Positions 4,499 to 50,537 of a stretch of 57,836 nt of DNA are shown here, in pieces. Both the position numbers and the translations under genes were made by a program. Origin of the DNA: Lutibacter sp. (GTDB lineage Bacteria > Bacteroidota > Bacteroidia > Flavobacteriales > Flavobacteriaceae); NCBI RefSeq assembly GCF_030692605.1, contig NZ_JAUYUD010000111.1, forward strand, positions 1-57,836. Reading direction: 5' to 3'. The notes below the pieces were generated by a model, which saw nothing but the letters and a program-made list of their open reading frames with translations, searched no databases and was not told where the DNA came from. Numbering within the stretch: position 1 is the stretch's first letter; each line of letters begins with the position of its first letter.

Positions 4499-4500
4499 TT

Positions 4501-32098: not shown

Positions 32099-33802
32099 AT
32101 GTATTCTATAAAAAAGGGTATTAATAACAAGAGTAAAATTAAAATATTTATTTTTATTTTAATAATTTCATCTGGGTTTTTAGGATGTAATTTTAGTAAT
32201 AAATCAGCTTCATCATCTGAAAATTTAAATCTTTCGGTTCCAGATTCAAATAATGAATTCTTTCAAGAAATTGGTCAGTCAATTGGATTAAATTTTATTC
32301 ATTCAATAGGTTCTAAAGAGATGGATAATATTATCGAATCTGTTGGCGGAGGGACTGCCTTTCTTGACTTTGATCAAGATGGTTTTATAGATATTTTTAT
32401 GTGCAGTGGCACTTGGATTGAAGGATTTAGCGATGGTGATAAACCAGATAATTTACCTGTAAATAGACTCTATCGTAATTTGAAGAATGGCACTTTCGAA
32501 GATGTAACTGAAAAAGCTAAGTTAAACATTCCAATGTATAGTTTAGGATCTACAATTGGTGATTATAATAATGATGGTTATCCCGATATTTTTATCAGTA
32601 ATTATGGGATTAACGCTTTGTTCAAAAACAACGGAAATGGCACATTTGAAAATGTAACTAAAAACGCAAAAATTGGAGGTGGAAAAAACGAATGTAGCGT
32701 TGGTGCAGTTTGGTTTGATTATGACAATGATGGGCTTTTAGATTTATATGTTGGAAATTACCTAGAATTTAATCCCGATTATAAATACTTCTACGCTCCA
32801 GATGGTTTTCCAGGACCACTTGCTTATAACAGTCAACCAGATATTTTGTACCATAATAACGGAGATGGATCTTTTAAAAATGTTACCAAACAAATGGGTA
32901 TTGTAGATATTGATGGAAGAGCAATGGGAGTTGGTGCGGCTGATTATGACGATGATGGTTTTATGGATATTTATGTTGCTAATGATCACACAGTTAATTA
33001 TTTATGGCATAATAATGCAGGTAAAGGATTTACAGATAGAGGTGTAATGTCAGGTACTGCATTTAGCCAAGCAGGTGAGGCCACAGTTAGTATGGCAATA
33101 GATTTTTCAGATTACAATCAAGATGGATTGTTAGATATGTTTATTTCAGATGACAATTATTGTTCGCTATATGAAAATTTAGGAAAAGGTGTTTTTAAGG
33201 ATAATTCATATGCTTCAGGTATTTCGATAGCTGCTGGTCAATTTATTGGTTGGTCTTCTTCATTTTTAGATTATGACAACGACGGAGATGCAGATATTTT
33301 TAAAACAAATGGAGAATTAAAACACCGATATGGGCAAGAAGATCAACTTTTTGAAAATTTAGGAGATGGAAAATTCAGTGATGTTTCGGTTGAAAGAGGA
33401 AGCTATTTTAAAGAAGAAAATGTTGGTCGTGGTGCATGTATGGGTGATTATGACAATGATGGAGATATTGATATTTTTATTACAAATTTAGATAATAAAG
33501 CAAAATTTTTAAGAAATAACAAAGGGAATCTAAATAATTGGATAACATTAAATTTAGTTGGTCAATCTAGTAATAGAGATGGAATAGGATCTAGAATTAA
33601 AATTGTAAGTGGCGGAAAAAATTACATAATGCAAAAAATTAGTACAAGTGGTTATCTTTCACAAAATGACCCAAGAGTTCACATCGGATTGAATAAGAAC
33701 CTAACAGTTGAAAGTATTGAAATTAAATGGCCTTCCGGAAAAATACAATTATTAAAAAACGTAAAGATTAATCAAATTTTAACAATTAAAGAGCCAATAT
33801 AA
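32099..33802 (+). CDS. CRTAC1/ASPIC-UnbV family FG-GAP propeller lipoprotein
   Basis: The 567-residue protein has a lipoprotein-type signal with Cys near residue 30 (GFLGCNF). Seven calcium-type DxDxDGxxD loops follow (DFDQDGFID, DYNNDGYPD, DYDNDGLLD, DYDDDGFMD, DYNQDGLLD, DYDNDGDAD, DYDNDGDID), one per blade of a seven-bladed FG-GAP propeller. The C-terminal 100 residues are the ASPIC/UnbV domain (GIGSRIKI, HIGL). CRTAC1-type proteins have no proven bacterial activity. It opens a run of thirteen co-directional genes and is 4 bp from the next, so it probably works at the cell surface with their products. Confidence 0.9.
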   Translation: MYSIKKGINNKSKIKIFIFILIISSGFLGCNFSNKSASSSENLNLSVPDSNNEFFQEIGQSIGLNFIHSIGSKEMDNIIESVGGGTAFLDFDQDGFIDIFMCSGTWIEGFSDGDKPDNLPVNRLYRNLKNGTFEDVTEKAKLNIPMYSLGSTIGDYNNDGYPDIFISNYGINALFKNNGNGTFENVTKNAKIGGGKNECSVGAVWFDYDNDGLLDLYVGNYLEFNPDYKYFYAPDGFPGPLAYNSQPDILYHNNGDGSFKNVTKQMGIVDIDGRAMGVGAADYDDDGFMDIYVANDHTVNYLWHNNAGKGFTDRGVMSGTAFSQAGEATVSMAIDFSDYNQDGLLDMFISDDNYCSLYENLGKGVFKDNSYASGISIAAGQFIGWSSSFLDYDNDGDADIFKTNGELKHRYGQEDQLFENLGDGKFSDVSVERGSYFKEENVGRGACMGDYDNDGDIDIFITNLDNKAKFLRNNKGNLNNWITLNLVGQSSNRDGIGSRIKIVSGGKNYIMQKISTSGYLSQNDPRVHIGLNKNLTVESIEIKWPSGKIQLLKNVKINQILTIKEPI

Positions 33803-33806
33803 ATAC

Positions 33807-35231
33807 ATGATACCTAATAGATTAAATAAATTTTTCATTCTTATAGTATGTATAGGGTTTGTTTTTGTGTTTTCATCTTGTGATAATAGCTTAAAAGAAG
33901 GGACAATTATTTGCACACAATTAGCTGAAAATCATGAAAGCAACAGCTTAAACATACAAAATTATTTAAACTATTTTTCAAATGCAAAAATTGTAGCTTT
34001 TAATGCTGAAAAACAAAGTGGATTTGCTCAAATTCTGACTGAAGAATTCTTCTCTGCTTGCGCTCCTTCTATTTCTTTTGATGGAGAATCAATGGTTTTT
34101 TCTGGTCAAAAAAATAAGAATGATGTTTGGCAGATTTGGGAAATGAATTTAACTAATTTAAAAATTAATGGAATAACAAATTCTTCAGAAAATTGTTTTG
34201 ATCCAGCTTATTTACCTAACGGGACAGTGGTATTTAGCAAAAGAAAAACAACAAATGTTGAAGACAATTTTTATGCTCTTTTTACCTGTAAATTAGATGG
34301 TACAGATTTAATGCAAATTACATATAACCCAAATCAAAAATTTGGTTCATCAATTTTAAGGGATGGAAGAATATTAACTATTTCGAGTCAAATTTACCCT
34401 GAAAATCAAGCGCCAATATTTGTGGTTTTAAGACCCGATGGAACAAAAGAAGAATTGTTTTATAAAAGTGAATTTAATGCAACTATTGTAAGTTCTGGAA
34501 TCGAAACATCTGAAGAAAAAATTGTTTTTATAGAATCTGATAGTGAAAACAAAGGAAGTATTGTTTCAATAAATTATAACAGGCCTTTTCATAGTTATGA
34601 AAATTTATCATCTGGTATTTCGGGATATTTTAATTCGGTTTATCCAATTACACATGAAAAATTTATTGTGACTTATCGTACTTCATCTAAGGAAACGTTT
34701 GCTCTTTATGAATTTAATCCGGTCACTAAATTACTTGGAAATAAAATCTATAAAGATGAAAAAAACAATTTGGTACAAGCGGTAGTTGTTTTGAAAAAGG
34801 AAAGACCAAAAAAGCTACCAAGCGAGATTATTTTAAAAAATGAAACCGGGCTTTTAGTTTCTCAAAACATCAATTTTTTAGATATAAAGGATATCGCGAA
34901 TAAGCAGTCTATTGCAATTGCTGAAAAAGTGGAGATTGAAGGGATGAAGAATTACAGAGAGGTTATCGATGTTGAAGAAGATGGTTCTTTTTATATTAAA
35001 GTTCCAGCTAATACACCATTTAGGATTAAAACCCTTGATAAGAACGGAAATATTGTAAAAGGACCAAGCGGTTGGATATATTTACGCCCAAACGAACGAA
35101 GAGGTTGTATTGGTTGCCACGAAGATAAGGAGCAATCACCTGAGAATGTACAACCACTTGCGGTAAGAAAGGAACCAATTTCAATTTTTGTTCAGAAAAA
35201 AGAAAATAACCAGATTAAAGTTGACTTTTAA
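33807..35231 (+). CDS. TolB/HzsA-like propeller lipoprotein with one c-type haem site
   Basis: The 474-residue protein has a lipobox (VFSSCDN, Cys near 26). TolB/PD40-type propeller repeats follow (for example PSISFDGESMVFSGQ and FDPAYLPNGTVVFSKR). The C-terminus carries one CxxCH haem motif (GCIGCHED near 433). The RRGCIGCHE segment recalls proteins annotated as related to the alpha subunit of hydrazine synthase (HzsA). That similarity is to a shared haem-plus-propeller layout and is not evidence of hydrazine chemistry. It lies 5 bp from the multihaem gene, so electron exchange between the two is likely. Confidence 0.8.
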   Translation: MIPNRLNKFFILIVCIGFVFVFSSCDNSLKEGTIICTQLAENHESNSLNIQNYLNYFSNAKIVAFNAEKQSGFAQILTEEFFSACAPSISFDGESMVFSGQKNKNDVWQIWEMNLTNLKINGITNSSENCFDPAYLPNGTVVFSKRKTTNVEDNFYALFTCKLDGTDLMQITYNPNQKFGSSILRDGRILTISSQIYPENQAPIFVVLRPDGTKEELFYKSEFNATIVSSGIETSEEKIVFIESDSENKGSIVSINYNRPFHSYENLSSGISGYFNSVYPITHEKFIVTYRTSSKETFALYEFNPVTKLLGNKIYKDEKNNLVQAVVVLKKERPKKLPSEIILKNETGLLVSQNINFLDIKDIANKQSIAIAEKVEIEGMKNYREVIDVEEDGSFYIKVPANTPFRIKTLDKNGNIVKGPSGWIYLRPNERRGCIGCHEDKEQSPENVQPLAVRKEPISIFVQKKENNQIKVDF

Positions 35232-35236
35232 GAAGT

Positions 35237-37273
35237 ATGAAAAAGTATAGTTTTTTAATGATTTTTGGTGTAATTTTTATCGCTATTTTGATAATTTATT
35301 CCCCTGTTCGTCAGTTGGCTAGAGCGCATGTAAATTATGAAACGGCTGTTAAAGACCATCCCTTATCATGTACTTCTTGTCATTTATACAACCAAAATGA
35401 TGGTTTTATCACAAAATTTATTAACGAAGATTATTATTCTCCTTTTAATTTAGTGGTTTCAAAAGATAGCAAAAAAGTTTATGTTATTGCTCAAGATGCA
35501 GACTTATTAATGATTTTAGATACCGAAAACAATAGAGTTTTAAATAAAATTAAAGTTGGAGAGCATCCGCATAGTGTAATTTTAAGTAAAAATGAACAAT
35601 TTGCTTATGTAAGTAATCAGTGGGAAGATTCTGTGTCTGTTATAGATTTAAAATTATCAAAGGAACTATTTAAATTAAAAACGGGTAATGGTCCGGCAGA
35701 ACTTTCATTAAGTCCTGATGGGAATTTTTTATATGTTGTAAATACCTTTAGCTCCGATCTATCAGTAATTGATCTGACGAAAAAAATTGAGGTTAAAAGA
35801 TTAATTACTGGTAGTAATCCAACAGGAATTGCCATAGAACCAAATGGTAAGAATCTGCTAGTTTCAGCAAGACGAGCTAATATAGATAATTACGGAGAAC
35901 TGATTTCATCCGATATTACCCTAATTGACATCAACAAACAATCTGTAATAAAAAAGATAAATGTTAAATCGGCATATATGCTTGAAAATATTGCATATAC
36001 ACCTTCGGGAGACTTTGCAATTACAACGCTAATTAGACCTAAAAATAACATTCCTTCTATTCAAGTTGAACAAGGCTGGATGATGAATCATGGTATTGGA
36101 ATTATTGACCAAAAAGGAGAAGGAAATGTAGTTCAGTTCTTAATTGATGAACCAAATTCATTTTATTCTGATCCTTTTGATATTGTAATTACTCCTGATG
36201 GTAAAAAGGCATTTGTTTCAAGTTCAGGAGTTGATGTAATTTCAGTAATAAGTATTGATTCAGTTCGTGCGATAATTTCAAAAGCATCACCTGAATTATT
36301 AAAAAAATACTCGAATAATTTGGGAATAAGTAGTAAGTATGTTGTGAAAAGAATAAAAACAGGAGCAAACCCAAAAGGTTTAGCACTTTCGGCTGATGGT
36401 AAAAAATTATTTATTGCAGAACAACTTCAAGATAGAATATTAGTGATTAATACGGCAACTTATGAGATTATAAATTCAATTGATTTGCAGGGGCCAAAAA
36501 AAATTACTGTAGCACGAAGAGGACGTATCCTGTTTAATAATGCGAGCCATACTTTTCAAAACCAATATGCATGTTATACATGTCATCCAGATACGCATGA
36601 AGATGGACTTATTTATAACATGGGAGGAGCTGGTATGGGGCGAAATTTAACAAACACAATGACGTTACGCGACATAAGCGAAACAGGCCCTTATAAATGG
36701 ACAGGAACAAATCATAGTATTTATAAACAAGACGGAATACGTTTTTCAACTTTTCTTACAAGAACAGAAGCGTTTAGTCACAGCGATTTAGATGCGCTAG
36801 TTGCTTATATTAGAACTGGGATAAAAAACCCTCCAAATTTAATTTACAATCCAACCGGAGAACATACCGATTCACAGCTTAGAGGTAAAGCAATTTTTGA
36901 AAGATCTAAGAATAATTTTGGCACATTAATTCCAAAAAATAATCGCTGTGTGACGTGTCATCCAGCTCCCTATTTCACAAACTTAAAGTTAGCAGATGTG
37001 AGCACTTTAGGAACATCTGATGACTCAACACTTTTTGACACACCACATTTAATTAATATTGATGCTTCTCCACCATATTTACACGATGGACGGGCTAAAA
37101 CATTAGAAGAAATATGGACAGTTTATGGCACAGATGAAAAACATGGTGTAGTTAACGATTTATCAAAAATAGAATTAAACGAATTGGTTGATTATTTAAA
37201 ATCAATAAGAGCACCAAAATATAATAAAGATGATTCAAAAAATTCACAATTAACACATTATAAATCTAAATAA
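35237..37273 (+). CDS. YVTN beta-propeller fused to MauG/cytochrome c peroxidase-like domain
   Basis: The 678-residue exported protein has an N-terminal hydrophobic signal/anchor (about 5-21), a first haem motif CTSCH (C45-H49), and a YVTN/NHL-type propeller (about 60-420, repeats such as KVGEHPHSVILS and LYVVNTFSSDLSVIDL). A cytochrome c peroxidase/MauG-like domain carries two haem motifs (CYTCH near 446 and CVTCH near 572). That gives three c-haems in total. MauG-type enzymes use bis-Fe(IV) chemistry to modify partner proteins or reduce peroxide. In this setting a maturation or oxidase role on a neighbour is plausible but unproven. It is 5 bp from both flanking genes. Confidence 0.88.
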   Translation: MKKYSFLMIFGVIFIAILIIYSPVRQLARAHVNYETAVKDHPLSCTSCHLYNQNDGFITKFINEDYYSPFNLVVSKDSKKVYVIAQDADLLMILDTENNRVLNKIKVGEHPHSVILSKNEQFAYVSNQWEDSVSVIDLKLSKELFKLKTGNGPAELSLSPDGNFLYVVNTFSSDLSVIDLTKKIEVKRLITGSNPTGIAIEPNGKNLLVSARRANIDNYGELISSDITLIDINKQSVIKKINVKSAYMLENIAYTPSGDFAITTLIRPKNNIPSIQVEQGWMMNHGIGIIDQKGEGNVVQFLIDEPNSFYSDPFDIVITPDGKKAFVSSSGVDVISVISIDSVRAIISKASPELLKKYSNNLGISSKYVVKRIKTGANPKGLALSADGKKLFIAEQLQDRILVINTATYEIINSIDLQGPKKITVARRGRILFNNASHTFQNQYACYTCHPDTHEDGLIYNMGGAGMGRNLTNTMTLRDISETGPYKWTGTNHSIYKQDGIRFSTFLTRTEAFSHSDLDALVAYIRTGIKNPPNLIYNPTGEHTDSQLRGKAIFERSKNNFGTLIPKNNRCVTCHPAPYFTNLKLADVSTLGTSDDSTLFDTPHLINIDASPPYLHDGRAKTLEEIWTVYGTDEKHGVVNDLSKIELNELVDYLKSIRAPKYNKDDSKNSQLTHYKSK

Positions 37274-37278
37274 TTCAA

Positions 37279-38463
37279 ATGATTATGACAAAAAAAACAT
37301 TTAAATACCTGATAATTTTTATTTTTACTATTGTTTTTTTAGGAGCTGGATATTTTTTGATTAATAACCTAAAATCAAGCAATAATTTGGTAAAAAATGA
37401 AGTAAATGAAAATAACACGACTTTTTCTGTTGCTGACAACAAAAAGGATCTTGAAAAGAATTTCGAATCAATGCCAATTTTCGGAAATTGGGAAAGTTTT
37501 ACTTCAGAAAATGGACTTCCCGATGATAAAACGTATTGCGTACGTATAGATGGAGAACGAATTTTGGTAGGAACTCACGGAGGTTTAGCTGTTTATGAAA
37601 ACAAGAAATGGAAAACCTATACCAAAGAAGATGGTTTGGCTCACAATGGTGTTATATCGATAGATGTAAGCGAATTAACGGGTGATGTTTGGTTAGGAAC
37701 TTTAGGAGGTTTATCAAGATGGTCTGCTGGTAAATTTGAAAATTTTACACAACTTAATAGTGGTATGCCAAATGATTTGGTTTATTCAGTTGTTTGTGAT
37801 GGTAAAGATGTTTGGGTTGCCACAGGAGGTGGAGCTGGAGCGTATGATACCTATACCAAAAAATGGCAAATTTTTACCGAAAAAAATGCACCAATGCACG
37901 AACCTTGGACGTATGGTATTAGTAAAGGAGATGGTAAAATTTTTATTGCTGCTTGGGGTGGAGGTGTTATAGAATACACAAAAAAAACAAGAACATTTAG
38001 AGATTATCATGACCCCGATGGTAATATGGAAATAGACCTTTTTCCTGATGATGGGATTGTACATGATATTACTACAGGAACATCATGGTCAAATGGATTT
38101 TTGTGGGTATCAACCTATTTTGGGCTAAGTAGGTACGATGGTGTAAAATGGAAAGGTTATTTTGACCATGATAGTGGTTTAGCTAGCAATTTTATAAATA
38201 GTTTAAAAGCATATAGAGGAGTTGTTTTTCTTTGTACAGATAAAGGATTGAGTACTACCGATGGCACAAACTGGGTTACTTATAAAAGAAATGATAATAA
38301 TTCTAAAGGAAAAGTTTTTATAACAAAGGAGGAGAAAATAACAGAAACAGCAAGTTCATCTTCAATTTCACATAGTTTTATTATTGGAGTTGATGTTAAA
38401 GATGATATAATTTGGGTGGCAACATCAAAGGGTATTAGCCGAGGAGAACTATTGAAACAGTAG
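37279..38463 (+). CDS. Membrane-anchored two-component-regulator-type (Reg_prop) beta-propeller protein
   Basis: The 394-residue protein has an N-terminal membrane helix (about 10-28), then repeats of the regulator-propeller type: WESFTSENGLPDDKTYCVRID, WKTYTKEDGLAHNGVISI, FENFTQLNSGMPNDLVYSV, WKGYFDHDSGLASNFINSL. These motifs normally form the periplasmic sensor of hybrid two-component systems. Here no kinase, HTH or other output domain follows, so it is a stand-alone periplasmic propeller. An ATG at 37285 is an alternative start. It follows the multihaem gene by 5 bp and probably serves as a binding or scaffold protein. Confidence 0.82.
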   Translation: MIMTKKTFKYLIIFIFTIVFLGAGYFLINNLKSSNNLVKNEVNENNTTFSVADNKKDLEKNFESMPIFGNWESFTSENGLPDDKTYCVRIDGERILVGTHGGLAVYENKKWKTYTKEDGLAHNGVISIDVSELTGDVWLGTLGGLSRWSAGKFENFTQLNSGMPNDLVYSVVCDGKDVWVATGGGAGAYDTYTKKWQIFTEKNAPMHEPWTYGISKGDGKIFIAAWGGGVIEYTKKTRTFRDYHDPDGNMEIDLFPDDGIVHDITTGTSWSNGFLWVSTYFGLSRYDGVKWKGYFDHDSGLASNFINSLKAYRGVVFLCTDKGLSTTDGTNWVTYKRNDNNSKGKVFITKEEKITETASSSSISHSFIIGVDVKDDIIWVATSKGISRGELLKQ

Positions 38464-38547: not shown

Positions 38548-39141
38548 ATGGAAAATGCAATAGCATGTGATACTAAAAAAGTGTTAATAGATTTATCTAA
38601 ATTAACTGATGGCGAAAAAATTGAAATGAAAAAATTAGGAATCTTATCTGATACAAATAAAATAATAGATTCAGTTTACCCTGATATACATATTGGAAGA
38701 CCAGCAATAGAAAAACATGTTGTTCATGCACCGCATATTATAAATGAGGCCTATGACTACCAAAAACCATCTTCATTTTCAAGAGCTTTGCGTTTAGATT
38801 TAGGTGATTATAAGGTGTTGTTAATATCTGGAACAGCTAGTGTTAATGAAGAAGGAAAGCCAGAACATATTGGTGATTTTAAAGCACAACTTTGGAGAAC
38901 CTATCGGAATATTACAAATCTTTTAGAGGCAGAAGATATGTCGTGGCACGATGTGGTTAGGACATCAAACTACTTGAGAGATATTGAACGAGATTATGAA
39001 GAATTCAATAAAATTCGTACTACATTTTTTCAATGGCTAAACTTAAATCCTTTACCTGCAAGTACAGGAATTCAAGCACGATTATGTTGGGAAACCCTTC
39101 TTGTTGAAATAGAAGTTTATGCTATTTGTAAATCAAAATAA
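38548..39141 (+). CDS. RidA/YjgF-family protein with N-terminal extension
   Basis: The 197-residue protein has a RidA-like fold in its C-terminal 130 residues: LLISGTASVNEEGKPEHIGDFKAQ, TYRNITNLLEAEDMSWHDVVRTSNYLRDI, and LPASTGIQARLCWETLLVEIEVYAI. The Arg in the usual catalytic position of RidA is seen as QARLCW. About 65 N-terminal residues are extra compared with RidA (about 130). No signal peptide is present, so it is cytoplasmic. RidA proteins deaminate enamine/imine intermediates. Related YjgF folds occur in chorismatases, which is suggestive because a DAHP synthase lies two genes on. It follows a small 84-bp gap with no gene. Confidence 0.8.
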   Translation: MENAIACDTKKVLIDLSKLTDGEKIEMKKLGILSDTNKIIDSVYPDIHIGRPAIEKHVVHAPHIINEAYDYQKPSSFSRALRLDLGDYKVLLISGTASVNEEGKPEHIGDFKAQLWRTYRNITNLLEAEDMSWHDVVRTSNYLRDIERDYEEFNKIRTTFFQWLNLNPLPASTGIQARLCWETLLVEIEVYAICKSK

Positions 39142-39150: not shown

Positions 39151-40461
39151 ATGAAACCTTATATTCTAAATTTGGCTATCATTTTATGCATGCTGTTACT
39201 ATCGGTTTCTAATTTGATTGCACAAAATAAAAGTAAAATGTATGGCAATACACCTGATAGGTTGTTCCCATATAATAATTTTGAGAAGGCTTATAAATAT
39301 CATTTTATTGATCCCATTCAATTTAGCGGAGCAGGAAGAGAAAAACTTCCTCCAAAAGATTTAAAAGAAGTTCGCATAGGTTTCCTCGGACCTTTGGAAG
39401 GTTCTGCAATAGTTTCTTTAGGAAAACAAATGTTACAAGGAACAATGTTAGCTATTGAAGAGGCCAATAAAAAAGGAGGATATAAGGGTCTTCCTTATAA
39501 ATTAATGGTACATAATGATGCTGGACTATGGGGAGCTGCAGCAAATGAAGTTGTAAAAATGGACGATGAAAAAGTATGGGCTTTTTTAGGTTCAATAGAT
39601 GATATTGTATCTCATGTAGCGTTAAGAGCAGCTTTAAAATTGGAAATACCAATGGTTTGTACCGGAAATCCAGATCCAACATATACTGAAACTAATATTC
39701 CTTGGACCCTTCGTGTAATAAGTGATGATAGACAAAGCGGTTATGCTATAGGTGCATATATTTTTGAAAAAATGAAACACAAACGTGTTGCTGTTATGAG
39801 AAATAGTGGAAGATACGGAAGAGTTGGTGTGGGCGAATTTTATGGAATTGCAAAACGAATGGGGCATCCAATTAGGATTGAAGAACGATTTGACACCGGT
39901 GAAACCGATTTTAAAATGCAATTAGAAAGCATTAAGCAGCTAACACCTGAAGCCATTCTAATATGGGGAAATGCTAAAGAATCGGCACTTATTATAAAAC
40001 AAATTCGTTCAATGGGCTTAAAACAACCAATTTATTGTTCAGATAGAATAGTTTCTAAAGAATTTCTTGAAATTGCTGGACCGTTTGCGGAAGGAATTGT
40101 TTCTACTTCTCCATATAACCCTGAGGCTAATAACCCTAAGTTAAAAGAATTTCAAATCAATTATTTTAAGCGTTTTAAACAACAACCCGATGCTTTTTCT
40201 GCACATGCCTATGATGGAATGAAAATTTTAATTGAAGCTATTAATAAAGGAGGACTTAACAGAGTTTTAATTCGAGATTATTTGCTCGATCTTAAAACTT
40301 TTCAAAATTATCAAGGGATAACAGGTAAAATAGTTTTTGATGCCACTTGGAATGATATTGGTGATATTTGGCTTGCGAAAGTTAAAAACGGGAAATTTAC
40401 TTTTATACTAAATGATGCAAATGAAAATGTTGGCACTAAAATAAAGGGTGCTAAAAACTAA
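39151..40461 (+). CDS. LivK-type periplasmic ligand-binding protein 1 (orphan)
   Basis: The 436-residue protein has a Sec signal (about 1-25) and then a type I periplasmic binding fold (Peripla_BP_6). The first strand is [11 protein letters not shown], followed by [29 protein letters not shown], and [15 protein letters not shown] near the end. It resembles branched-chain amino-acid and amide binding proteins. No permease or ATPase gene occurs in the cluster. LivK-like proteins without transporters are known in PQQ-dependent alcohol oxidation clusters, where they accompany YVTN propellers and cytochromes, much as here. Ligand unknown. Confidence 0.88.
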
Positions 40462-40471
40462 AATAGAATAT

Positions 40472-41338: not shown

Positions 41339-42441
41339 TAAGAACACATTTTTTTATAATAGCCATTTTATTTTTCTTTATTCAAAATATTTTTTCGCAA
41401 AAAAACGTTTCAAAAGAAGTTAAAATAATAAAAATTGGAATGCTAATAAGTGATGAGAAATCATTATTTGCCAAAAACGCTGCTGAATTAGCAATAGAAA
41501 AAGCAAATGAAAAAGAAAGAAAAAATGGACTTCAATTTCAATTAGTTGTTAGGTCTATGGATGGCGCTTGGGGAATAGGTTCAAAACAGGCAGTAGATCT
41601 TATTTTTAACGAAAAAGTATGGGCAATTATAGGCTCTCATAATGGTAGAAATGCACATTTGGTAGAACAAGTAATTTCAAAAACGCGTATCGTTTTTTTA
41701 TCAGCATGGGCCAGTGATCCAACCCTATCTCAGGCTTTCGTTCCTTGGTATTTTAGTTGTGTTCCTAATGATAATCAACAAGCAAAAGCATTAGTGGACG
41801 AAATTTATAACAACAGAAGAATTACTAAAATTTCTACTATATCAGATTTAGGTTATGATTCAAAATTAGGATTACAAAGTTTTTTAAGAGAAACAGAAAA
41901 GATAAAGACCAATACCCCTTTGCAGTTGTTTTATAAAGATTCGAATAAAGATTTCATCGAAATTATAAAGAGGTTAAATAAGGAATCTATTCAAGGTGTT
42001 ATCTTTTTTGGACAGCCTGCTAATTCAACAAAATTTTTTCTTGAAATGAAGCAAAAAAAAATGAAGCAACAAGTTTTTGGAACGTTGTCTCTTATGGGAG
42101 AAGATGAATTCAATAATATAAATTTGGTAAATTATGAAAATCTTATTATAGCAAATTACGGCAATTGGATGGATTCAGACGGCTTCGTTTTTAGAAGGGA
42201 TTATCAAAAAAAATATAGGATTGTTCCAAATGCAGTAGCTGCATATTCCTTTGATAGTGTAAATATGATTATTGAAGCAATTAAAAAATCGTCATATATT
42301 AAAGAAAACCTTCAGAAAGAATTATCAACTATTCAATATAATGGTGTTACAGGTACTATTCAGTTCGATAATAAAGGCAATCGTAAAGGAAAAGTAGGAC
42401 TTGTAAAAATAAAAAACGGGATTCCTGTTACTATAAAATAA
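41335..42441 (+). CDS. LivK-type periplasmic ligand-binding protein 2 (orphan)
   Basis: The 368-residue protein has a Sec signal (about 1-22, ending FSQ). It is a divergent type I periplasmic binding fold: [50 protein letters not shown], and a last strand [11 protein letters not shown]. It is a paralogue of the binding protein at 39151 but shorter and less like classical LivK. Its ATG overlaps the DAHP synthase stop (ATGA), so translation is coupled. No membrane transporter is nearby. The two receptors may present one small molecule to the propeller/haem proteins, as an inference from position only. Confidence 0.82.
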
Positions 42442-42484: not shown

Positions 42485-45400
42485 ATGAAGAACATATTAA
42501 ATTTATTTGTTTTAACACTTTTTATAGTAGCTTTATCAAGCTGTAAAAATTCTGAAAAAGAGGATAAAGGAAAGGCCGTTGAATTAATGACCTCACAAAC
42601 CTTGGGGTTGGCATATTTAGAAGAGTTTAAATTAGAAGACGCAGAAAAAGAGTTTTTAAAAGTAATAGAAATGGCACCTAATGAAAAATTAGGATATGCC
42701 AATTTAGGACTTACTTATTTAAGAATGGGTAACTATAAAGATGCCGAAAAACAACTTTTTAAGGCAATTGAAATAGACGTAAAAGATGCGGATTTAATGT
42801 TGCTCTTAGCAACAGTCTATAAAATGGACAGCAAAAATGAAAAAGCAATAAATACGTTAATAAATGCATTAAAGTTTGCACCAGATCATATAAAAATTCT
42901 CTACGAACTTACTGAATTTTATACACTTGAATTTAATAATGAATCTCAAAAAAAGCGTTTCGATTATTTAAAATTATTGGTCGAAAAGGCAGCTGGAAAC
43001 ATAGTTCCGCAACTTAATATAACTGAAATTTACATTAAGAATGGAGAAACAGATAATGCCTTAGCACAATTAGAAATTATACAAAAACAGTTTCCTGAAT
43101 TTCCGAAGGAAGCAATTCCGTACTTTGACAAAACAATGTCTTTATTGAAAAAAAAGGATGAAGAAAACGCGCTAACGCAATTTATGATTTTTCATAATTA
43201 TTTAAAAGTTTCCTTTCCTTATCAAAATGGAATTATGGATTTGAAGGGGCCAGGAGGTTCACTTATTGGTTTCCCACTAATTACTTTTGATAAACAAGAT
43301 TCTTCAACAGAATTAAGCAGTTCTAAATCTATTATTGAGGCAATAAAATTTACAGATATAACAGCATCTGCGGGTTTAGATATTGTACCAACATTTGAAG
43401 AAGGTAAATTTTTAGAATACAAAAATTCTACTTTTATTGAAATTGCAGATTACGATGGAGACGGAGAAATAGATATTTATGTAGGAAGTTTTAATCCAAC
43501 AACTAAAACATTTCAGCATTACCTTTTTAATAATGATATGGCACGCTTTAAAGATGTTTCAAAAGAAGTTGGACTTAAATTTACAGGAAATGAATCGTCA
43601 GCAATTTTTGCGGACTATGACAACGATGGTTTTTTGGATCTTTTTATTACAAGAGAAGAAGGCGATTTATTGTATAAAAATGTTGGAAAAGGCATTTTCG
43701 AAAATGTTACAAAAAAAGCTAAACTCGAAAATTCAAAAGGAGGGAAAAAGAGTTTATTTGTAGATTTTGACCACGATGGAGATCTTGATTTATTCGTATC
43801 AAAACTAAATTCTAATGTTGTTTTTCAAAATAATGGTGATGGCACCTTTACAGATAATACTAACAAAATGGGATTATTTGGGACAGGGACTAATTGTAGT
43901 AATGCCACATTTGGAGATTTTGATGATGATGGAGATATTGATCTTTTAGTTGCAAATGAAAACACTAAGAACGTTTTATATTCTAATCAACGCCAAGGAA
44001 TTTTTAGAGATATAACAAAAAATACAGGATTAAAAGAGACTAGAGGTTCCAGTTCATTGGCTGTTGGAGATTTTAATAACGATGGATTTTTAGATGTGTT
44101 TATAACATCAAGTACTGGTGAAACTTCTGAATTATATAAAAACCTAGGAAATGCTAAATTTGAACTAATAAAAGGGACAAATAATTTTTTTGATAAATTA
44201 ATTAATGTAAAAGTTTTCGACTCTAAATTTTTTGATTTTGATAACGATGGATTATTGGACATAATTATTGTTGGTGAATCTAAACAAAAAGGAGGTCAAG
44301 GAGTTTTTCTATACCACAATGAAGGATCTGAAAAATTTAAAAATGTATCTCACTTATTACCCGAAACATTAAAATCTGGAAAGCAAATTAAACTTTTCGA
44401 TTATAATGATGATGGTGATTTAGATTTAGTGATAGCAAAATTGAATGGCGGAATTTCACTTTTACGAAATGACGGAGGAAATAACAATCATTATTTAAGC
44501 ATGAAACTTGTTGGTTTAAGGACAGGAAGCGCCAAAAACAATTATTTTGGAATTGGCTCAAAAGTGGAGGTTAGATCTGGGGATCTTTACCAAACTATGA
44601 TTGTTACTAGTCCTAATGTCTATTTTGGTCTTGGAAATAGAACGAGAGCTGATATTATTAGAATAACTTGGACTAATGGTGTGCCTCAAAATATATTTTT
44701 ACCTGAAGCGGATCAAGCTTTAATAGAGGCTCAAACATTAAAGGGCTCTTGTCCTTTTATTTATGGATGGAACGGCAATAAATTTGAGTTTGTAAAAGAC
44801 ATAACTTGGAGAAGTGCACTTGGGATGCCTCTTGGTATCATGGGCGGAAATACCATGCATGCATTCGCGAATGCTTCCGATGATTATATTAAAATACCAG
44901 GCGAACTTTTAAAACCTAAAAATGGTGAATATATATTACAATTAACATCTGAACTTTGGGAAACTATTTATATGGATAAAATACAATTGATAGCAGTAGA
45001 TCATCCTGAAAATATTGATGTTTTTGTTCCAGAACAATTCTCTCCACCACCTTTTCCAGGAATGGATATCTATCAGGTTGAGAAAAAAATTGAACCTATT
45101 TCTGCAAAAGATGACTTTGGAAATGATGTACTTTCATTAATAACAAAAAAAGATGACAAATACATTTCAAACTTTAAGCCATGGAAATATCAAGGAACAA
45201 CCGAGTTACATGATTTAATTATTGATCCAGGAGAAGTTGGAAAAAGTAAAGAACTTTACCTATTTCTAAACGGATGGATATTCCCAACAGATGCAAGTAT
45301 TAATGTAGCGCTTTCTCAATCTGATAATTTTAAACTAATTCAACCTTCAATACAAGTTAAAAATAAAAAAGGAGAGTGGGAAACAGTTATTGAAAATTTA

Positions 45401-46051
45401 GGATTTCCAATGGGGAAAGATAAAACCGTAATTGCAAATCTTTCAGGGAAATTTTTATCTAATGACCATAGAATAAGAATTCAAACCAATATGGAAATTT
45501 ATTGGGACTATGTATTTTTCTCAAATAGCAATCCAAATGCATCCATAGAAACAACAGTTTTAAATCCCACCTATGCAAATATTCATTATAGAGGATTTTC
45601 TCAAACATATAAAAAAGGAGGTCGTTACGGTCCTCATTGGTTTGATTATTACAACGTTGACAAAAATAAAAAATGGCGAGATTTGATTGGTAATTACACA
45701 CGATATGGAGATGTATTGCCGCTGCTTTTGGAATCGGATAACAAATACATTATTTCCAATGGAGGCGATGAAACTACATTAAAATTTAATGCCAACATGT
45801 TACCACCCTTGAAAAAAGGATGGAAGAGAGATTTTCTTATTCATAGCGTAGGTTGGGTTAAAGATGGTGATATTAATACAGCTTTAGGAAGTACCGTTTT
45901 ACCACTTCCATTTCACGGAATGAGCAGTTATCCGCCAACTAAAATGGACGTATATCCTAGCACGAAAGAACTTCAAAAATACAATAAAGAATATAATACT
46001 AGAATTATTACGTCTGATGATTATCGTAATGTTCTTAAAAAATTAAACTAA
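42485..46051 (+). CDS. TPR + FG-GAP/ASPIC propeller lipoprotein with a large unassigned C-terminal region
   Basis: The 1188-residue protein has a lipobox near residue 20 (ALSSCKN). TPR repeats (about 30-250) include AYLEEFKLEDAEKEFLKVIEMAPNE. An FG-GAP propeller (about 310-680) has seven calcium loops (DYDGDGEID, DYDNDGFLD, DFDHDGDLD, DFDDDGDID, DFNNDGFLD, DFDNDGLLD, DYNDDGDLD), and an ASPIC-like segment follows (about 690-740). The last 430 residues form one or two further domains that I do not recognise, rich in Trp/Pro/Gly. It is probably the surface hub of the cluster. It starts 43 bp after the second binding protein and is 2 bp from the next CRTAC1 gene. Confidence 0.88.
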   Translation: MKNILNLFVLTLFIVALSSCKNSEKEDKGKAVELMTSQTLGLAYLEEFKLEDAEKEFLKVIEMAPNEKLGYANLGLTYLRMGNYKDAEKQLFKAIEIDVKDADLMLLLATVYKMDSKNEKAINTLINALKFAPDHIKILYELTEFYTLEFNNESQKKRFDYLKLLVEKAAGNIVPQLNITEIYIKNGETDNALAQLEIIQKQFPEFPKEAIPYFDKTMSLLKKKDEENALTQFMIFHNYLKVSFPYQNGIMDLKGPGGSLIGFPLITFDKQDSSTELSSSKSIIEAIKFTDITASAGLDIVPTFEEGKFLEYKNSTFIEIADYDGDGEIDIYVGSFNPTTKTFQHYLFNNDMARFKDVSKEVGLKFTGNESSAIFADYDNDGFLDLFITREEGDLLYKNVGKGIFENVTKKAKLENSKGGKKSLFVDFDHDGDLDLFVSKLNSNVVFQNNGDGTFTDNTNKMGLFGTGTNCSNATFGDFDDDGDIDLLVANENTKNVLYSNQRQGIFRDITKNTGLKETRGSSSLAVGDFNNDGFLDVFITSSTGETSELYKNLGNAKFELIKGTNNFFDKLINVKVFDSKFFDFDNDGLLDIIIVGESKQKGGQGVFLYHNEGSEKFKNVSHLLPETLKSGKQIKLFDYNDDGDLDLVIAKLNGGISLLRNDGGNNNHYLSMKLVGLRTGSAKNNYFGIGSKVEVRSGDLYQTMIVTSPNVYFGLGNRTRADIIRITWTNGVPQNIFLPEADQALIEAQTLKGSCPFIYGWNGNKFEFVKDITWRSALGMPLGIMGGNTMHAFANASDDYIKIPGELLKPKNGEYILQLTSELWETIYMDKIQLIAVDHPENIDVFVPEQFSPPPFPGMDIYQVEKKIEPISAKDDFGNDVLSLITKKDDKYISNFKPWKYQGTTELHDLIIDPGEVGKSKELYLFLNGWIFPTDASINVALSQSDNFKLIQPSIQVKNKKGEWETVIENLGFPMGKDKTVIANLSGKFLSNDHRIRIQTNMEIYWDYVFFSNSNPNASIETTVLNPTYANIHYRGFSQTYKKGGRYGPHWFDYYNVDKNKKWRDLIGNYTRYGDVLPLLLESDNKYIISNGGDETTLKFNANMLPPLKKGWKRDFLIHSVGWVKDGDINTALGSTVLPLPFHGMSSYPPTKMDVYPSTKELQKYNKEYNTRIITSDDYRNVLKKLN

Positions 46052-46053
46052 TT

Positions 46054-47700
46054 ATGAAATTTAGAAATACAGTTTTTATTTTTTTTATTTTTTTCAGCAC
46101 TGCTTACGGACAGAAAATTATGTTTACAGACGTAACCCAAAAAGCAGGTATTAATTTTAGATATACTTTTGGTGATAACAGTTATCAAAATATTCTTGAA
46201 AGTAGTGGTTCAGGCATAACTATTTTTGATTATAATAATGATGGATTTATGGATATTTATCTTTTGAACGGACGCTATTTGGAAGGAATTTCAGATTCAA
46301 AAGGTAAAATATATAAAAACTTTCATAACGAACTGTATAAAAATAACGGGAATGGCACATTTACAAATGTTACTAAAAAAGCCAGAGTTGAAGGAAATTA
46401 TTGGGGTATGGCTGCAAGTGCCATTGATTTAGATAATGACGGATTTCAAGATTTGTATGTGTTAAATTTTGGCAAAAATGTTTTCTACCATAATAATGGA
46501 AATGGAACATTTAGTGACATAACAACATCCTTAAATTTGAGCGGTCCAGATAAATTAAATGGATTTACAAAGTGGAGTATTGGAGCATCCTTTTGGGATT
46601 ATAATAAAGATGGCAAATTGGATGTAATGGTTGGTAATTTTATGGCGTTCAACCCAAGTTATTTTACACCATCATCACCAGATATGATGCCAAGCCCTGC
46701 AGAATATGATGGACAGGCTTCCTTTCTTTATGAACAACAATCTAACGGAAAATTTTTAGATGTTACAAGTAAGAATAACCTGTTATTTCCACAGTCGAAA
46801 TGTATGGGATTATCAATATTTGATTTCGATAATGATGGAGACTTAGATATTTTTCAAGCAAATGATCATCAGTTAAATTTCTTATTTAAAAAAGAAAAGG
46901 ATGGATTTAAAGATGTAGCTATTCAAAGTGGAGTTGCTGCAAATAATAAAGGAATAGGAACTGGTTCAATGCATCCAACAATTGGGGATATAAATGGAGA
47001 TGGCTTAATTGATATTCTTGTTTCTGATCTTGATCATGGCGCTCTGTACTTAAATAAGGGAAATGGTTTGTATGAAGATGTTACAGTTAAAAGTGGTGTA
47101 GCAGCTGCAATGTTGGGAAAAGGAGGATGGGGAGCTGCATTATTTGATTTTGATAATGATGGAGATCTCGATTTGGTTGCAGCAAACGGAACCGCTGAAA
47201 AGCTTATTTTACAATATCCATTATTAATGGAAAATGATGGAAAAGGGAATTTTAAGAATATAGGACAAAAACATGGTTCTTATTTTTTAACAAAACGTTC
47301 TGGGAGAGGTTTAGCAATATTGGATTATAATAATGACGGATTTTTAGATATTGTTATATCACATCTAGACAAGCTAGGAGTTCCTTCATTGCTTAAAAAT
47401 AGTGGAGATAATGGCAATCAATGGCTTGGGCTAACGTTAAAAGGTAAAAATGGACCTAGTTCAACAATTGGAGCTACAGTAGTGGTTACCTCTGGTGGAA
47501 AAAAGCAAGTGTTTGTTAATCAATGGGCAACAAGTTATCTTTCAAACAATGATCAAAGACTTCATATAGGCCTTGGTAAAAATAAGATAATTGATTCCAT
47601 AGAAATAAATTGGACTAATGGCAATAAAGAAATTTATAAGAACATTAAAACCAACCAATATGTAATAATTTTAGAAGGAAAAGGATTTGTAAAAAAATAG
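46054..47700 (+). CDS. CRTAC1/ASPIC-UnbV family FG-GAP propeller protein (third copy)
   Basis: The 548-residue protein has a cleavable Sec signal (about 1-19, ending AYGQ) rather than a lipobox, so it should be soluble or secreted. Seven calcium loops are present (DYNNDGFMD, DLDNDGFQD, DYNKDGKLD, DFDNDGDLD, DINGDGLID, DFDNDGDLD, DYNNDGFLD). The C-terminal ASPIC/UnbV domain follows (TIGATVVVTSGGKK, LHIGLGKN). It is homologous along its length to the protein at 32099, which indicates an old duplication within the cluster. The 64-bp gap after it leads to the asparagine-synthetase-like gene. Confidence 0.9.
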   Translation: MKFRNTVFIFFIFFSTAYGQKIMFTDVTQKAGINFRYTFGDNSYQNILESSGSGITIFDYNNDGFMDIYLLNGRYLEGISDSKGKIYKNFHNELYKNNGNGTFTNVTKKARVEGNYWGMAASAIDLDNDGFQDLYVLNFGKNVFYHNNGNGTFSDITTSLNLSGPDKLNGFTKWSIGASFWDYNKDGKLDVMVGNFMAFNPSYFTPSSPDMMPSPAEYDGQASFLYEQQSNGKFLDVTSKNNLLFPQSKCMGLSIFDFDNDGDLDIFQANDHQLNFLFKKEKDGFKDVAIQSGVAANNKGIGTGSMHPTIGDINGDGLIDILVSDLDHGALYLNKGNGLYEDVTVKSGVAAAMLGKGGWGAALFDFDNDGDLDLVAANGTAEKLILQYPLLMENDGKGNFKNIGQKHGSYFLTKRSGRGLAILDYNNDGFLDIVISHLDKLGVPSLLKNSGDNGNQWLGLTLKGKNGPSSTIGATVVVTSGGKKQVFVNQWATSYLSNNDQRLHIGLGKNKIIDSIEINWTNGNKEIYKNIKTNQYVIILEGKGFVKK

Positions 47701-47764
47701 AATAAATAATTTATCTTTTAAAATTGGCTGGAATTATAACGAAAAAATATAATTAAAAAAAATA

Positions 47765-49099
47765 ATGAACATGAATAGTATGTATGTTAGTAAAGTAGTG
47801 GATCTAACAAATCCTGAAAAAAATGTCATTTATAATATGACGCATGAAGAAGCTGTAAATGTAGTTAAATCGGGTGATGTAGAGGCAGTGCGAAAAATTG
47901 ATGGTCAATTTTCTCTTGTTTCTGTAGAAGGGAAAACAATTCAAATGGCTCGATCTTTAGGTAGACCAATGCGTTATTTTATAGCAAAACGTGCAGTTGG
48001 ACCTCAATTGGTGATTGCTGAGCGCATTGATGTAATATTCGATTATTTAAAAAAAGAAGGTATGGAAGATCAGTTTCATCCTTCTTATACCAGAATGGTG
48101 CCGGCACATTATATTACAAGAATTGAATTATTAGGTTGTCCAGATCCCAATCCAATTTATACACGATTTTTTACACCACAACGAAATAAATATGCACCAA
48201 ATAGCGCAAATCAAATTGGTGCAGATTACATAAATGCAGTTTATAAAGAAATTAAAAAGTGGCTTCAATATAGAGCAACATCAGGACCAATTGGAGTAAC
48301 TTTCTCAGCCGGAATTGATAGTGGCTCAGTGTTTTTACTTACCTATCATGCACTTTTAGAACTTGGCGAAAGCCCATCAAGATTAAAGGCATTTACACTT
48401 TCAATTGAAGGAGGAGGGGAAGATTTAGCCCAAGCTAAAAAGTTCTTAAAAGACCTGAATCTTGAATTATTTTTAGAGCCTATAGAATTAGATCATTCAG
48501 CATTAGATTGGAAAGAAGCTATAAATGTTGTTGAAGATTATAAACCACTAGATATTCAATCTGCTACAATGAATTTGGCACTTTTAAAAGGAATTAAATC
48601 TCGTTATCCTGAATGGAAATATATTTTAGACGGAGATGGTGGTGATGAAAATTTAAAAGATTATCCGATAGAAGATAATCCCGAATTAACTATTAGAAGC
48701 GTACTTAATAATTTAATGTTGTATCACGAAGGTTGGGGAGTTGAGTCTATCAAACATTCCTTAACTTATTCTGGAGGATTAAGCAGAGGTTATATGAGAA
48801 CCTATTCGCCAGCAGATGTATTAGATTTTGAAACATTTAGCCCATATACATTGCCAAATGTTATTGAAATTTCGGAAGGAATTCCTTATATAGAAATGAC
48901 CAATTGGGATCATAAAAAACTATACGATTTAAAAGGAGATATTGTAGCTGCAGGTGTAAAAGCTGTGACTGGAATGGATATGCCTGTTTTTGAAAAAAGA
49001 CGTTTTCAGCATGGGGTAACTTCAATGGATGATTTTAAAAAATTATTTCCAATTAAAGAATTGGATTACAGAAAAGAGTTTCTGTCAAAATATGAGTGA
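47765..49099 (+). CDS. Asparagine-synthetase-like ATP-dependent amide-forming enzyme lacking the glutaminase Cys
   Basis: The 444-residue protein has an N-terminal domain of AsnB type (GQFSLVSVEGKT, about 47-58) but no catalytic Cys after the initiator Met (it reads MNMNSMYV). The synthetase domain has the PP-loop SAGIDSGS (181-188; AsnB has SGGxDSS) and DGDGGDENLKDYP near 300 (AsnB GxGxDExxxGY). It should adenylate a carboxylate and attack it with ammonia or an amine, as in beta-lactam synthetase or lasso cyclases, and not via glutamine. It is cytoplasmic and overlaps the radical SAM gene by 8 bp. The substrate is unknown. Confidence 0.85.
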   Translation: MNMNSMYVSKVVDLTNPEKNVIYNMTHEEAVNVVKSGDVEAVRKIDGQFSLVSVEGKTIQMARSLGRPMRYFIAKRAVGPQLVIAERIDVIFDYLKKEGMEDQFHPSYTRMVPAHYITRIELLGCPDPNPIYTRFFTPQRNKYAPNSANQIGADYINAVYKEIKKWLQYRATSGPIGVTFSAGIDSGSVFLLTYHALLELGESPSRLKAFTLSIEGGGEDLAQAKKFLKDLNLELFLEPIELDHSALDWKEAINVVEDYKPLDIQSATMNLALLKGIKSRYPEWKYILDGDGGDENLKDYPIEDNPELTIRSVLNNLMLYHEGWGVESIKHSLTYSGGLSRGYMRTYSPADVLDFETFSPYTLPNVIEISEGIPYIEMTNWDHKKLYDLKGDIVAAGVKAVTGMDMPVFEKRRFQHGVTSMDDFKKLFPIKELDYRKEFLSKYE

Positions 49100-50036
49100 G
49101 AATAAAAACCCAATTATATCTAATAAATGGATAGTTTCTAATCGTGGAATCAAAAATATTGTTGATTCACAAAAACCATATGCTTGGTTGGTAGAAAAAG
49201 AGCGGCAATCCTTGGGAAAAATTGAGGACGTAGCAACTATTTTTTTAACCAATCAGGAATGTCCTTTTAAATGTTTAATGTGTGATTTATGGAAGAATAC
49301 AACCAATAAATCGATTCCAATTGGGGCTATTCCAAATCAACTAAAATGGGCTTTATCACAAATGCCACAGGTTAAAAACCTAAAACTTTATAATAGCGGA
49401 AATTTTTTTGATGGGAAGGCTATTCCTGAAGAAGATTATGAACCAATAGCAGATTTAATTAAAGATTTTGAGACAGTTGTTGTAGAAAGTCATCCGAAAT
49501 TTATCAATGAAAAGTGTCTTCGATTTAAAAATTTGTTAAAACCTAAATTACAGGTTGCAATTGGTTTAGAAACTGTAAATACGAAAGTTCTTTTTAAGCT
49601 GAATAAACAAATGAATCTCAACGATTTTAAAACAGCAGTTGATTTTCTTTCTGAAAATGGAATTTCTTCAAGAGCTTTTATTTTGCTTCGCCCTCCATTT
49701 TTAACGGAAGAGGAAGGAATTTTTTGGGCACAAAAATCAATAGATTTTGCTTTTGAAGTTGGTGTTGAATGTTGTTCAGTTATTCCTGTTAGAGGTGGTA
49801 ATGGAGCTATGGAATTACTGCAAGAAACGGGTGATTTTAGCCCACCAAATATTCATTCTTTAGAAACAGTTATAGAATATGGTATTGCACTTAACGCTGG
49901 TAGAGTATTTGCCGATGTTTGGGATTTAGGTTTGTTTTCTAATTGTAAAAAATGCGTTGAGTTAAGAACAGAAAGGTTAATTGATATGAATTTGAATCAA
50001 AAAATAGAAAGTAAAATCCAATGTGATTGTAATTAA
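49092..50036 (+). CDS. Radical SAM enzyme with extra C-terminal cysteine cluster
   Basis: From the ATG at 49092, overlapping the previous stop by 8 bp, it is 314 residues (the frame stays open to 49029). The SAM cluster motif is C57-x3-C61-x2-C64 (CPFKCLMC). Later barrel segments include LKLYNSGNFFD, VAIGLETVN and RAFILLRPPF. The C-terminus adds C-x2-C (NCKKC) and a terminal CDC, four cysteines fit for a second Fe-S or zinc site. It resembles the TIGR01210/archaeosine-synthase-related branch, a resemblance that does not fix function. Translational coupling to the amide-forming enzyme suggests successive steps on one small molecule. Confidence 0.85.
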   Translation: MSENKNPIISNKWIVSNRGIKNIVDSQKPYAWLVEKERQSLGKIEDVATIFLTNQECPFKCLMCDLWKNTTNKSIPIGAIPNQLKWALSQMPQVKNLKLYNSGNFFDGKAIPEEDYEPIADLIKDFETVVVESHPKFINEKCLRFKNLLKPKLQVAIGLETVNTKVLFKLNKQMNLNDFKTAVDFLSENGISSRAFILLRPPFLTEEEGIFWAQKSIDFAFEVGVECCSVIPVRGGNGAMELLQETGDFSPPNIHSLETVIEYGIALNAGRVFADVWDLGLFSNCKKCVELRTERLIDMNLNQKIESKIQCDCN

Positions 50037-50075
50037 TTTGCAACACTATTAAAATAACACTTTTAATTTAATATA

Positions 50076-50537
50076 ATGAATAACGCGCATTTACATTTAT
50101 TGCTTAACCATTTATCAATAACATTTGTAATTATTGGTTTTATCGTGATGCTTTTCGGATTTTTATTTAAATCTGATATTGCTAAAAGAATAGCATATCT
50201 TATATTTATTTTAGCGGCTCTATTTGGGTTTGTAACCTTTCAAACGGGTGAAGGATCTAAACCATTAATTGAAGGAATTAAAGGCGTAAATAAAATTTCC
50301 ATAATAACTCATGAAAAAACAGCACTTATTTTCTTGTTTTTTCTGTATCTTTTAGGCGCTTTTTCAATAGTTGGCTTATGGGCAAATTGGAAAAAAAAAT
50401 CATTCTCCAATTTACTTGGTTATTCAATTATGGTATATTTATTTGTAGTTTTCTATTATGCTATACAAGCAGGAACAACTGGAGGTGAAATTAGACATTT
50501 AGAAATAATACCATTGGTTGAAAATTCTGATGTTTAA
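50076..50537 (+). CDS. DUF2231-like four-helix membrane protein
   Basis: The 153-residue integral membrane protein has four predicted helices (about 12-28, 36-53, 84-102 and 112-132). A family-typical N-terminus HLHLLLNHLSITF places two histidines near the first helix. Another HE pair precedes the third helix and a late GGEIRH follows the fourth. DUF2231 proteins often accompany c-type cytochromes, and conserved histidines could bind haem or metal. It ends the co-directional run, 39 bp after the radical SAM gene, and may be the membrane electron entry or exit point. The family function is not established. Confidence 0.72.
   Translation: MNNAHLHLLLNHLSITFVIIGFIVMLFGFLFKSDIAKRIAYLIFILAALFGFVTFQTGEGSKPLIEGIKGVNKISIITHEKTALIFLFFLYLLGAFSIVGLWANWKKKSFSNLLGYSIMVYLFVVFYYAIQAGTTGGEIRHLEIIPLVENSDV

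Follow-up and report, generated by a model that had tools for sequence, protein, structure and literature searches.

A hydrazine-synthase-like haem protein core linked to an AsnB-like ligase and a radical SAM enzyme in a conserved Bacteroidota operon

The stretch of DNA analysed here, referred to as the window, is contig NZ_JAUYUD010000111.1 of Lutibacter sp. at its full length of 57,836 bp (contig C59 of a 3.1 Mb Bacteroidota genome). Thirteen open reading frames (ORFs), denoted A to M, occupy positions 32099 to 50537 on the plus strand, and an ORF check of the window returned the positions given in a preliminary description of this DNA. That description had pointed to thirteen same-strand, tightly spaced genes, and the intergenic distances from A to M (4, 5, 5, 84, 9, −14, −4, 43, 2, 64, −8 and 39 bp, with the start of L corrected) bear this out, with 8 of the 12 junctions overlapping or measuring 9 bp or less. 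By sequence comparison, B and C are homologues of the alpha and the fused beta-gamma subunits of hydrazine synthase (HZS). They belong to a core, genes A to F, to which Bacteroidota add H, I and the unit J-K-L and often also G, an extra DAHP synthase.

The core begins with A (32099–33802), a lipoprotein-like FG-GAP/ASPIC protein of the CRTAC1 type (Pfam FG-GAP_3, 2.8e-48; UnbV_ASPIC, 1.1e-19) whose lipobox was spotted by eye in the translation. B (33807–35231; HZS_alpha, 2.5e-18) carries one haem motif, CIGCH (35106–35120), the equivalent of that of haem alpha-I. C (35237–37273) joins a seven-blade propeller homologous to HZS beta to a MauG/CCP-type dihaem region homologous to HZS gamma, and contains the haem motifs CTSCH (35369–35383), which is additional and N-terminal, CYTCH (36572–36586), the gamma-I equivalent, and CVTCH (36947–36961), the gamma-II equivalent, all on the plus strand. 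D (37279–38463) is a Reg_prop-type propeller (5.7e-5), E (38548–39141) a Rid-fold protein (Ribonuc_L-PSP, 7.1e-16) without the RidA catalytic Arg, and F (39151–40461) a LivK-type periplasmic binding protein (Peripla_BP_6, 2e-45; PDB 3td9, 6e-31). By homology, the HZS-superfamily pair, the propellers A and D and the binding protein F are periplasmic and E is cytoplasmic.

The extension comprises G (40448–41338), a DAHP synthase; H (41335–42441), a second, more divergent LivK-type binding protein (ANF_receptor, 3e-27) that falls with F in the Peripla_BP_6 group by its Pfam/NCBIfam labels; I (42485–46051), a TPR, FG-GAP and ASPIC protein by Pfam, with a conserved C-terminal domain; J (46054–47700), an FG-GAP/ASPIC protein by Pfam that usually lies alongside K and L; K (47765–49099), an AsnB-like ATP-dependent ligase (Asn_synthase, 1.1e-10) lacking the glutaminase Cys; and L (49092–50036), a radical SAM enzyme akin to RaSEA of archaeosine synthesis (TIGR01210, 8.3e-34). 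The start of L is most likely 49092 (MSENK...) and not 49029, because the L proteins of three relatives begin MSK... and overlap K or start just past its end. The last gene, M (50076–50537), encodes a small membrane protein outside the core, recognised only in the window and two further genomes (G617, G618) and not recognised behind L in G608; many other stretches stop earlier. Nearly all the gene labels of the preliminary description were confirmed by Pfam or NCBIfam, the part that did not stand being the DUF2231 label of M, which reaches 16.6 bits against a cut-off of 26.4 (E 0.0087) and denotes weak similarity.

The sole PDB match of B at E 0.001 is HZS alpha (5c2v_A, 1.9e-24). The propeller region of C finds its best match in HZS beta (5c2v_B, 2.2e-45), with other propellers also matching, and its dihaem region matches HZS gamma (5c2v_C, 3.4e-18); C is in addition weakly similar to MauG/MbnH-type enzymes. 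Against the NCBIfam model hydrazine_BC, C gives 8.6e-66, under the model cut-off, and the NCBIfam HZS scores lie far below their cut-offs. Adjacent alpha-like and beta-gamma-like homologues define the HZS superfamily, and B and C form such a pair. The preliminary description had found no recognised counterpart of this cluster, which is incorrect for B and C, and the group that they resemble has already been described as clade III of HZS homologues (PMC12758564).

The B protein of the window is 474 residues long against 804 model positions, about 300 residues shorter than HzsA, and has a single CxxCH; the haem alpha-II domain is absent from it. Residue patterns were read from family alignments that contained only long sequences free of X, namely 44 of B, 53 of C, 70 of E, 20 of K and 13 of L, each set plus the window protein. 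The CxxCH of B is present in 41 of 45 rows. Four Balneolaceae loci (L157, L159, L160 and L162) carry a natural haem-site variant of B in which the residues around the lost CxxCH are retained. C has three CxxCH motifs in 47/47 Bacteroidota/Chlorobiota rows; among six other rows, five have two and one has ten. A C-type protein with ten CxxCH, encoded in a Bryobacterales metagenome-assembled genome (MAG; L177:4879-7707), is similar to published clade I beta-gamma proteins. The gamma-I (C446, C449, H450) and gamma-II (C571, C574, H575) haem residues of C are kept in at least 97% of 54 rows, and Trp488, His616 and His636 are invariant in 54/54. By the mapping of PMC12758564, Trp488 is the MauG/CCP-type Trp; the same paper reports HZS homologues without the Tyr591 ligand of haem alpha-I. 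Position 499 of C, the probable match of HZS gamma-Cys165, is Asp in 39/54 rows and Cys in 15/54.

To map the cluster in other genomes, we searched the genome contigs of 84,980 species with E and found 94 relatives, the best 80 of which were mapped: 61 loci of Bacteroidota type or Chlorobiota (L104–L164), counted as loci and not as distinct genomes, and 19 of other phyla, chiefly Acidobacteriota. Identity thresholds were chosen by us and exclude A matches at about 30% identity, which are other ASPIC paralogues. Per-gene counts are lower bounds, because no flank exceeds 10 kb and many stretches stop short of K or L. On the 61 loci we recognised E and F in all 61, D in 60, C in 55, H in 52, B in 48, I in 47, A in 45, K in 37, G in 35, J in 34 and L in 16. 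Neighbouring pairs are retained accordingly (E-F, 61; D-E, 60; C-D, 55; B-C, 48; A-B, 45; J-K, 31), and where stretch length permits the order in Bacteroidota/Chlorobiota is A-B-C-D-E-F-(G)-H-I-J-K-L.

Some loci depart from this order. I and H are placed before A in three Balneolaceae loci (L157, L159, L162). In L146, L148, L149, L152, L154, L221, L222 and L225, K-L precedes A and shares its strand, with intervening ORFs in L152, L154 and L225. When K contexts were fetched separately, J lay beside K in 9 of 16, once across a 131-aa ORF, and 3 of the other 7 were cut by contig ends. The core is also found in Acidobacteriota and in one Planctomycetota locus: among the 19 loci of other phyla, 9 have C-D-E-F in sequence, five of them with B-A ahead, and on six stretches (L166, L168, L178, L179, L180, L183) neither D nor F is seen.

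K accompanies the core beyond the mapped stretches. Where the fetched stretch has no K (24 Bacteroidota loci), a genome search located it elsewhere in 19, so that K was found on the locus (37) or elsewhere in 56 of 61 Bacteroidota/Chlorobiota cases. Across 299 genomes of the family, E (E ≤ 1e-30) and K (E ≤ 1e-50) match an identical five in four genera, and across 38 genomes of the genus B and K match an identical five. As background, K gave a strong match in 2 of 247 class genomes, and 24 of 395 phylum genomes match L at E < 1e-60. B matched 108 of 375 phylum genomes at E ≤ 0.001, all but four of these being weak partial matches to propeller or haem regions; full-length B is confined among the 375 to the window genome and three genomes of one genus, all three of which also carry L. 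The preliminary description had proposed conserved co-occurrence and synteny across phyla as the check on a single system joining a periplasmic haem/propeller part with cytoplasmic enzymes, and had reasoned that scattered homologues, or cytoplasmic genes found only in ordinary shikimate or asparagine operons, would speak against it. Both synteny and co-occurrence support the idea: K and L homologues are linked and co-occur, and G comes on top of other DAHP-synthase-type genes. We consider it highly probable that A to L, with K-L included, form one conserved system.

The nucleophile Cys2 at the N terminus of glutamine-dependent asparagine synthetases is missing in the K of the window and in all 20 other aligned K proteins. 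K retains the SxGxDS pyrophosphatase loop of ATP ligases with the Asn-synthetase fold (SAGIDS at residue 181; S181, G183, D185 and S186 conserved). L has its CxxxCxxC at residues 57–64, counted from the corrected start. In a tree of 57 K proteins (midpoint-rooted, for drawing only), 35 from core-bearing genomes fall on one side of a branch with support 100/99, and this grouping holds even where K sits away from the core locus; L228, whose K adjoins a full cluster and is of the trio type, and the distant L233 depart from it.

The trio in question is a separate set, recurring in no fewer than 14 of the 20 Bacteroidota loci fetched for it (among L037–L055, for example L051:4506-8315 and L039:9006-14778), of an AsnB-like ligase, a RaSEA-like radical SAM enzyme and a PltM/CmlS-like flavin halogenase-type protein, and its K falls outside the cluster K clade. 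We found no description of this trio in the literature searched. In a Chitinophagaceae MAG (L130/L228) cluster genes A to J adjoin an opposite-strand trio-type K-L, which looks as though this pair had taken the place of the cluster's K-L. A flavin halogenase was considered as a missing partner of K-L and rejected, with strong matches only in 2 Balneolaceae (G662, G665) of 31 genomes tested, a set in which G608 and G698 are one species.

The column of the RidA catalytic Arg (Arg105 in E. coli numbering), set via an alignment with Rid structures, is S or A in 71/71 aligned E proteins, and E thus lacks the mark of RidA enamine/imine deaminases. A chorismatase identity for E was rejected: FkbO aligns only with its C-terminal half (E 0.0008) and Rid proteins score higher. 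G scores 393 bits against TIGR01361 (cut-off 267.75), as expected of a DAHP synthase. Other members of the DAHP-synthase family occur in 20/20 tested genomes, cluster-bearing or not, and 5 of the 20 have a match over the TIGR01361 cut-off, all of them genomes with cluster G; the G617 copy is split and scores below. Present in 34 and missing from 18 of the 52 Bacteroidota/Chlorobiota loci with both F and H, G is an additional, optional DAHP synthase copy. An ordinary shikimate or asparagine operon was considered and rejected, as the genome has DAHP-synthase-type genes besides G and K is not glutamine-using. In a Thermoanaerobaculia MAG (G682) a gene 49% identical to G follows E (L180:201-620 onwards). 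The end of I (44705–46051) is a domain of about 440 aa beyond the Pfam matches, 57–78% identical over 18 loci, and its predicted model contains a jelly-roll. Another contig of the window genome (G000:C54:11460-23516) encodes four further ASPIC proteins, each about 1,100 aa long.

We propose that the operon encodes a periplasmic HZS/MauG-type haem complex that works with a small molecule made by K and L. Homology, synteny, co-occurrence and residue patterns support this reading, and from them we infer the complex and its chemistry; in its full form the mechanism is tentative, a little short of an even chance. B and C would form a complex in which B and the propellers build a cavity and a docking surface, and the MauG/CCP-like gamma part of C would carry out redox chemistry at its first haem, supplied via the second haem and the extra N-terminal haem. 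K may use ATP to activate a carboxylate and couple an amine to it without glutamine, and L, by analogy with ArcS/RaSEA, might act on the K adduct to yield an amide or amidine. The product would be a substrate, cofactor or signal of the complex, the ligand bound or sensed by F and H would be a small molecule, amino-acid-like or aromatic, E could deal with a reactive by-product, and G and E may serve the same pathway as K-L. The aromatic origin of the compound, as first suggested, is still a guess, with G missing from a third of the loci noted above. A more specific version, in which the two-site chemistry of HZS (gamma-I haem, inner tunnel, alpha site) has been redirected in a non-anammox branch so as to act on a dedicated small molecule in place of inorganic nitrogen, an amide- or amidine-bearing K-L product being oxidised or given a new N-N or C-N bond and Balneolaceae keeping only the gamma-site half, is a long shot.

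Several observations weigh against this proposal. F-x-x-W-D/N replaces the alpha-I CxxCH in 4/4 aligned Balneolaceae B proteins. K was not found by genome search in five E-bearing Bacteroidota genomes (G650, G652, G656, G661, G664) or in 18 of the 19 genomes from other phyla, the only one with K being the Thermoanaerobaculia MAG G682, where it is distant (51% identity), and K is therefore not obligatory. The matching presence sets are inflated by kinship, because they comprise five genomes each, from one genus or four genera. The Balneolaceae core genomes hold a trio-type K-L (K 59–61% identity) away from the core, and since their K is trio-type this co-occurrence may be chance. The predicted structure of K is poor (pLDDT 47). 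L reaches 117.2 bits against the TIGR01210 (RaSEA equivalog) cut-off of 212.15, and because it scores so far below, its reaction may differ from that of RaSEA.

The occurrence of the core without K in most other-phyla genomes would also suit a catabolic or sensing machine, in which F and H capture an amine or aromatic compound from the environment for oxidation by the complex, and K-L makes a needed redox cofactor or protein modification. The weak similarity of C to MauG/MbnH-type enzymes fits such a machine, as do the two LivK-type receptors in a window cluster with no ABC transporter gene and, with ten neighbour proteins annotated, a SusC-like/SusD pair behind the core in the Balneolaceae locus L159 and an outer-membrane barrel in L169. 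However, no transporter or dehydrogenase is among the recurring cluster genes and a dedicated DAHP synthase suggests synthesis over degradation, and we regard this explanation as rather unlikely. Synthesis could instead end in a secreted compound, with K-L (and G) making a cytoplasmic precursor that A to J oxidise outside. The extra DAHP synthase, the occurrence of K-L in more than one position and the flavin halogenase-like gene beside homologous K-L in the trio, typical of natural products, point this way; yet the window cluster has no exporter, carrier protein or assembly line and the core exists without K, which makes natural-product finishing unlikely.

That the haem complex and the K-L pathway are chance neighbours, the latter hitch-hiking, is very unlikely: K-L occurs without the core in many Bacteroidota and the core without K in other phyla, but the presence sets are identical, the linkage recurs in two different orders and core-bearing genomes share a K clade even when K lies elsewhere. 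Exceedingly unlikely is a true hydrazine synthase or cryptic anammox, with the complex joining NO and ammonium, even though each of the three HZS subunits has its homologue in B or C. The probable gamma-Cys165 position is mostly Asp, and the key HZS residues are reported as not conserved in clades I–III (PMC12758564). PF13447 has no match in the window genome, a match in 1 of 22 cluster genomes (G702; the 22 include one species twice) and none in 14 controls. We take PF13447 to be the family covering HAO-type proteins, and the sensitivity of this search is little tested because no control genome gives a match. Since the family appears in only one of the 22 cluster genomes and the four aligned Balneolaceae B proteins lack the alpha-I motif, canonical hydrazine synthesis is unlikely, and on the proposed reading the operon product is not an anammox enzyme.

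Around the cluster, a histidine kinase and a response regulator are encoded on the minus strand upstream (28523–30484) as a candidate regulator. Of the 36 loci that allow the comparison, 7 have a kinase at most 2.5 kb upstream of A, with 67% identity in L112 and 26–29% in the other six. A promoter/terminator map was dropped, as predicted sites were no more frequent than in shuffled sequence (96 versus 102 ± 9 and 7 versus 7.3). The cluster is followed by GH65, LacI, MFS and GH65 genes (50601–57696), and GH65-like genes also lie behind M in Lutibacter G617 and G618. Regions 914–15018 and 18812–23446 hold a sigma-54-type regulator, a tetrathionate-reductase-like molybdoenzyme with its Fe-S subunit, a Crp-like regulator, Mo-cofactor genes (MoaA, MoeA, MobA-type, ThiF family) and a second NrfD/Fe-S/molybdoenzyme set.

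To our knowledge, the hydrazine synthase complex was formerly held to lack homologues. No experimentally confirmed function of HZS homologues outside anammox is reported in the literature examined. The operon gives one branch of the HZS superfamily conserved partners, including enzymes expected to make a specific small molecule. The cluster occurs in the apparently cultured strains Maribacter luteus, M. aquimaris, M. polysiphoniae and M. arenosus, Lutimonas halocynthiae and L. saemankumensis, and Lutibacter citreus; because the operon recurs as a unit, including in cultured bacteria, a non-anammox function of the superfamily becomes testable without anammox cultures.

Among known systems, anammox hydrazine synthase (Kuenenia, PDB 5c2v) shares homologous alpha, beta and gamma domains with the window, but the window lacks the alpha-II domain and has a different operon and no HAO-type family found in its genome; the catalytic residues of the anammox enzyme are those reported as non-conserved in clades I–III (PMC12758564). 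Hägglund et al. 2025 (PMC12758564) sorted HZS homologues into clades I–IV. In their clade III an FG-GAP gene lies upstream of alpha, alpha lies upstream of the beta-gamma fusion and two substrate-binding-protein genes lie downstream, and the proteins are a short alpha without haem alpha-II and a beta-gamma fusion with one extra haem. The window shares every one of these traits, and the B-C locus fits clade III by its traits, not by a tree. Term searches of the main text of that paper return no Rid, DAHP, asparagine, radical SAM or endoribonuclease, and the portions covered assign the clade no function. The hzs-like genes of Phycisphaerae and KSB1 (Suarez et al. 2023, PMC10732223) likewise place an hzsA-like gene beside a fused hzsBC-like gene; their hosts are Planctomycetota and KSB1, 'FG-GAP' is absent from the text covered, and the authors suggest a wider HZS-like family with other substrates.

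For the cytoplasmic enzymes, the nearest parallel is the archaeosine pair ArcS/RaSEA, in which RaSEA acts following lysine transfer by ArcS (PMC11298593): both pairs run a nitrogen-donor enzyme and a RaSEA-type radical SAM enzyme in sequence, but K is AsnB-like and not ArcS, L lies far under the RaSEA equivalog cut-off and no tRNA transglycosylase gene is in the cluster. The trio of other Bacteroidota has adjacent homologous K (about 55–60%) and L, and differs in its PltM/CmlS-like flavoprotein and in having no A to F core beside it in the fetched loci. Pyrroloquinoline quinone dehydrogenase and synthesis genes are absent from the thirteen genes, the rest of the genome not having been searched for them. 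The literature searched contained no account of the operon in its extended form, of the variation in its gene order, of the linkage with K-L, of the clade of K proteins or of the missing haem motif in Balneolaceae. The HZS-like core is already published as a family without a confirmed function.

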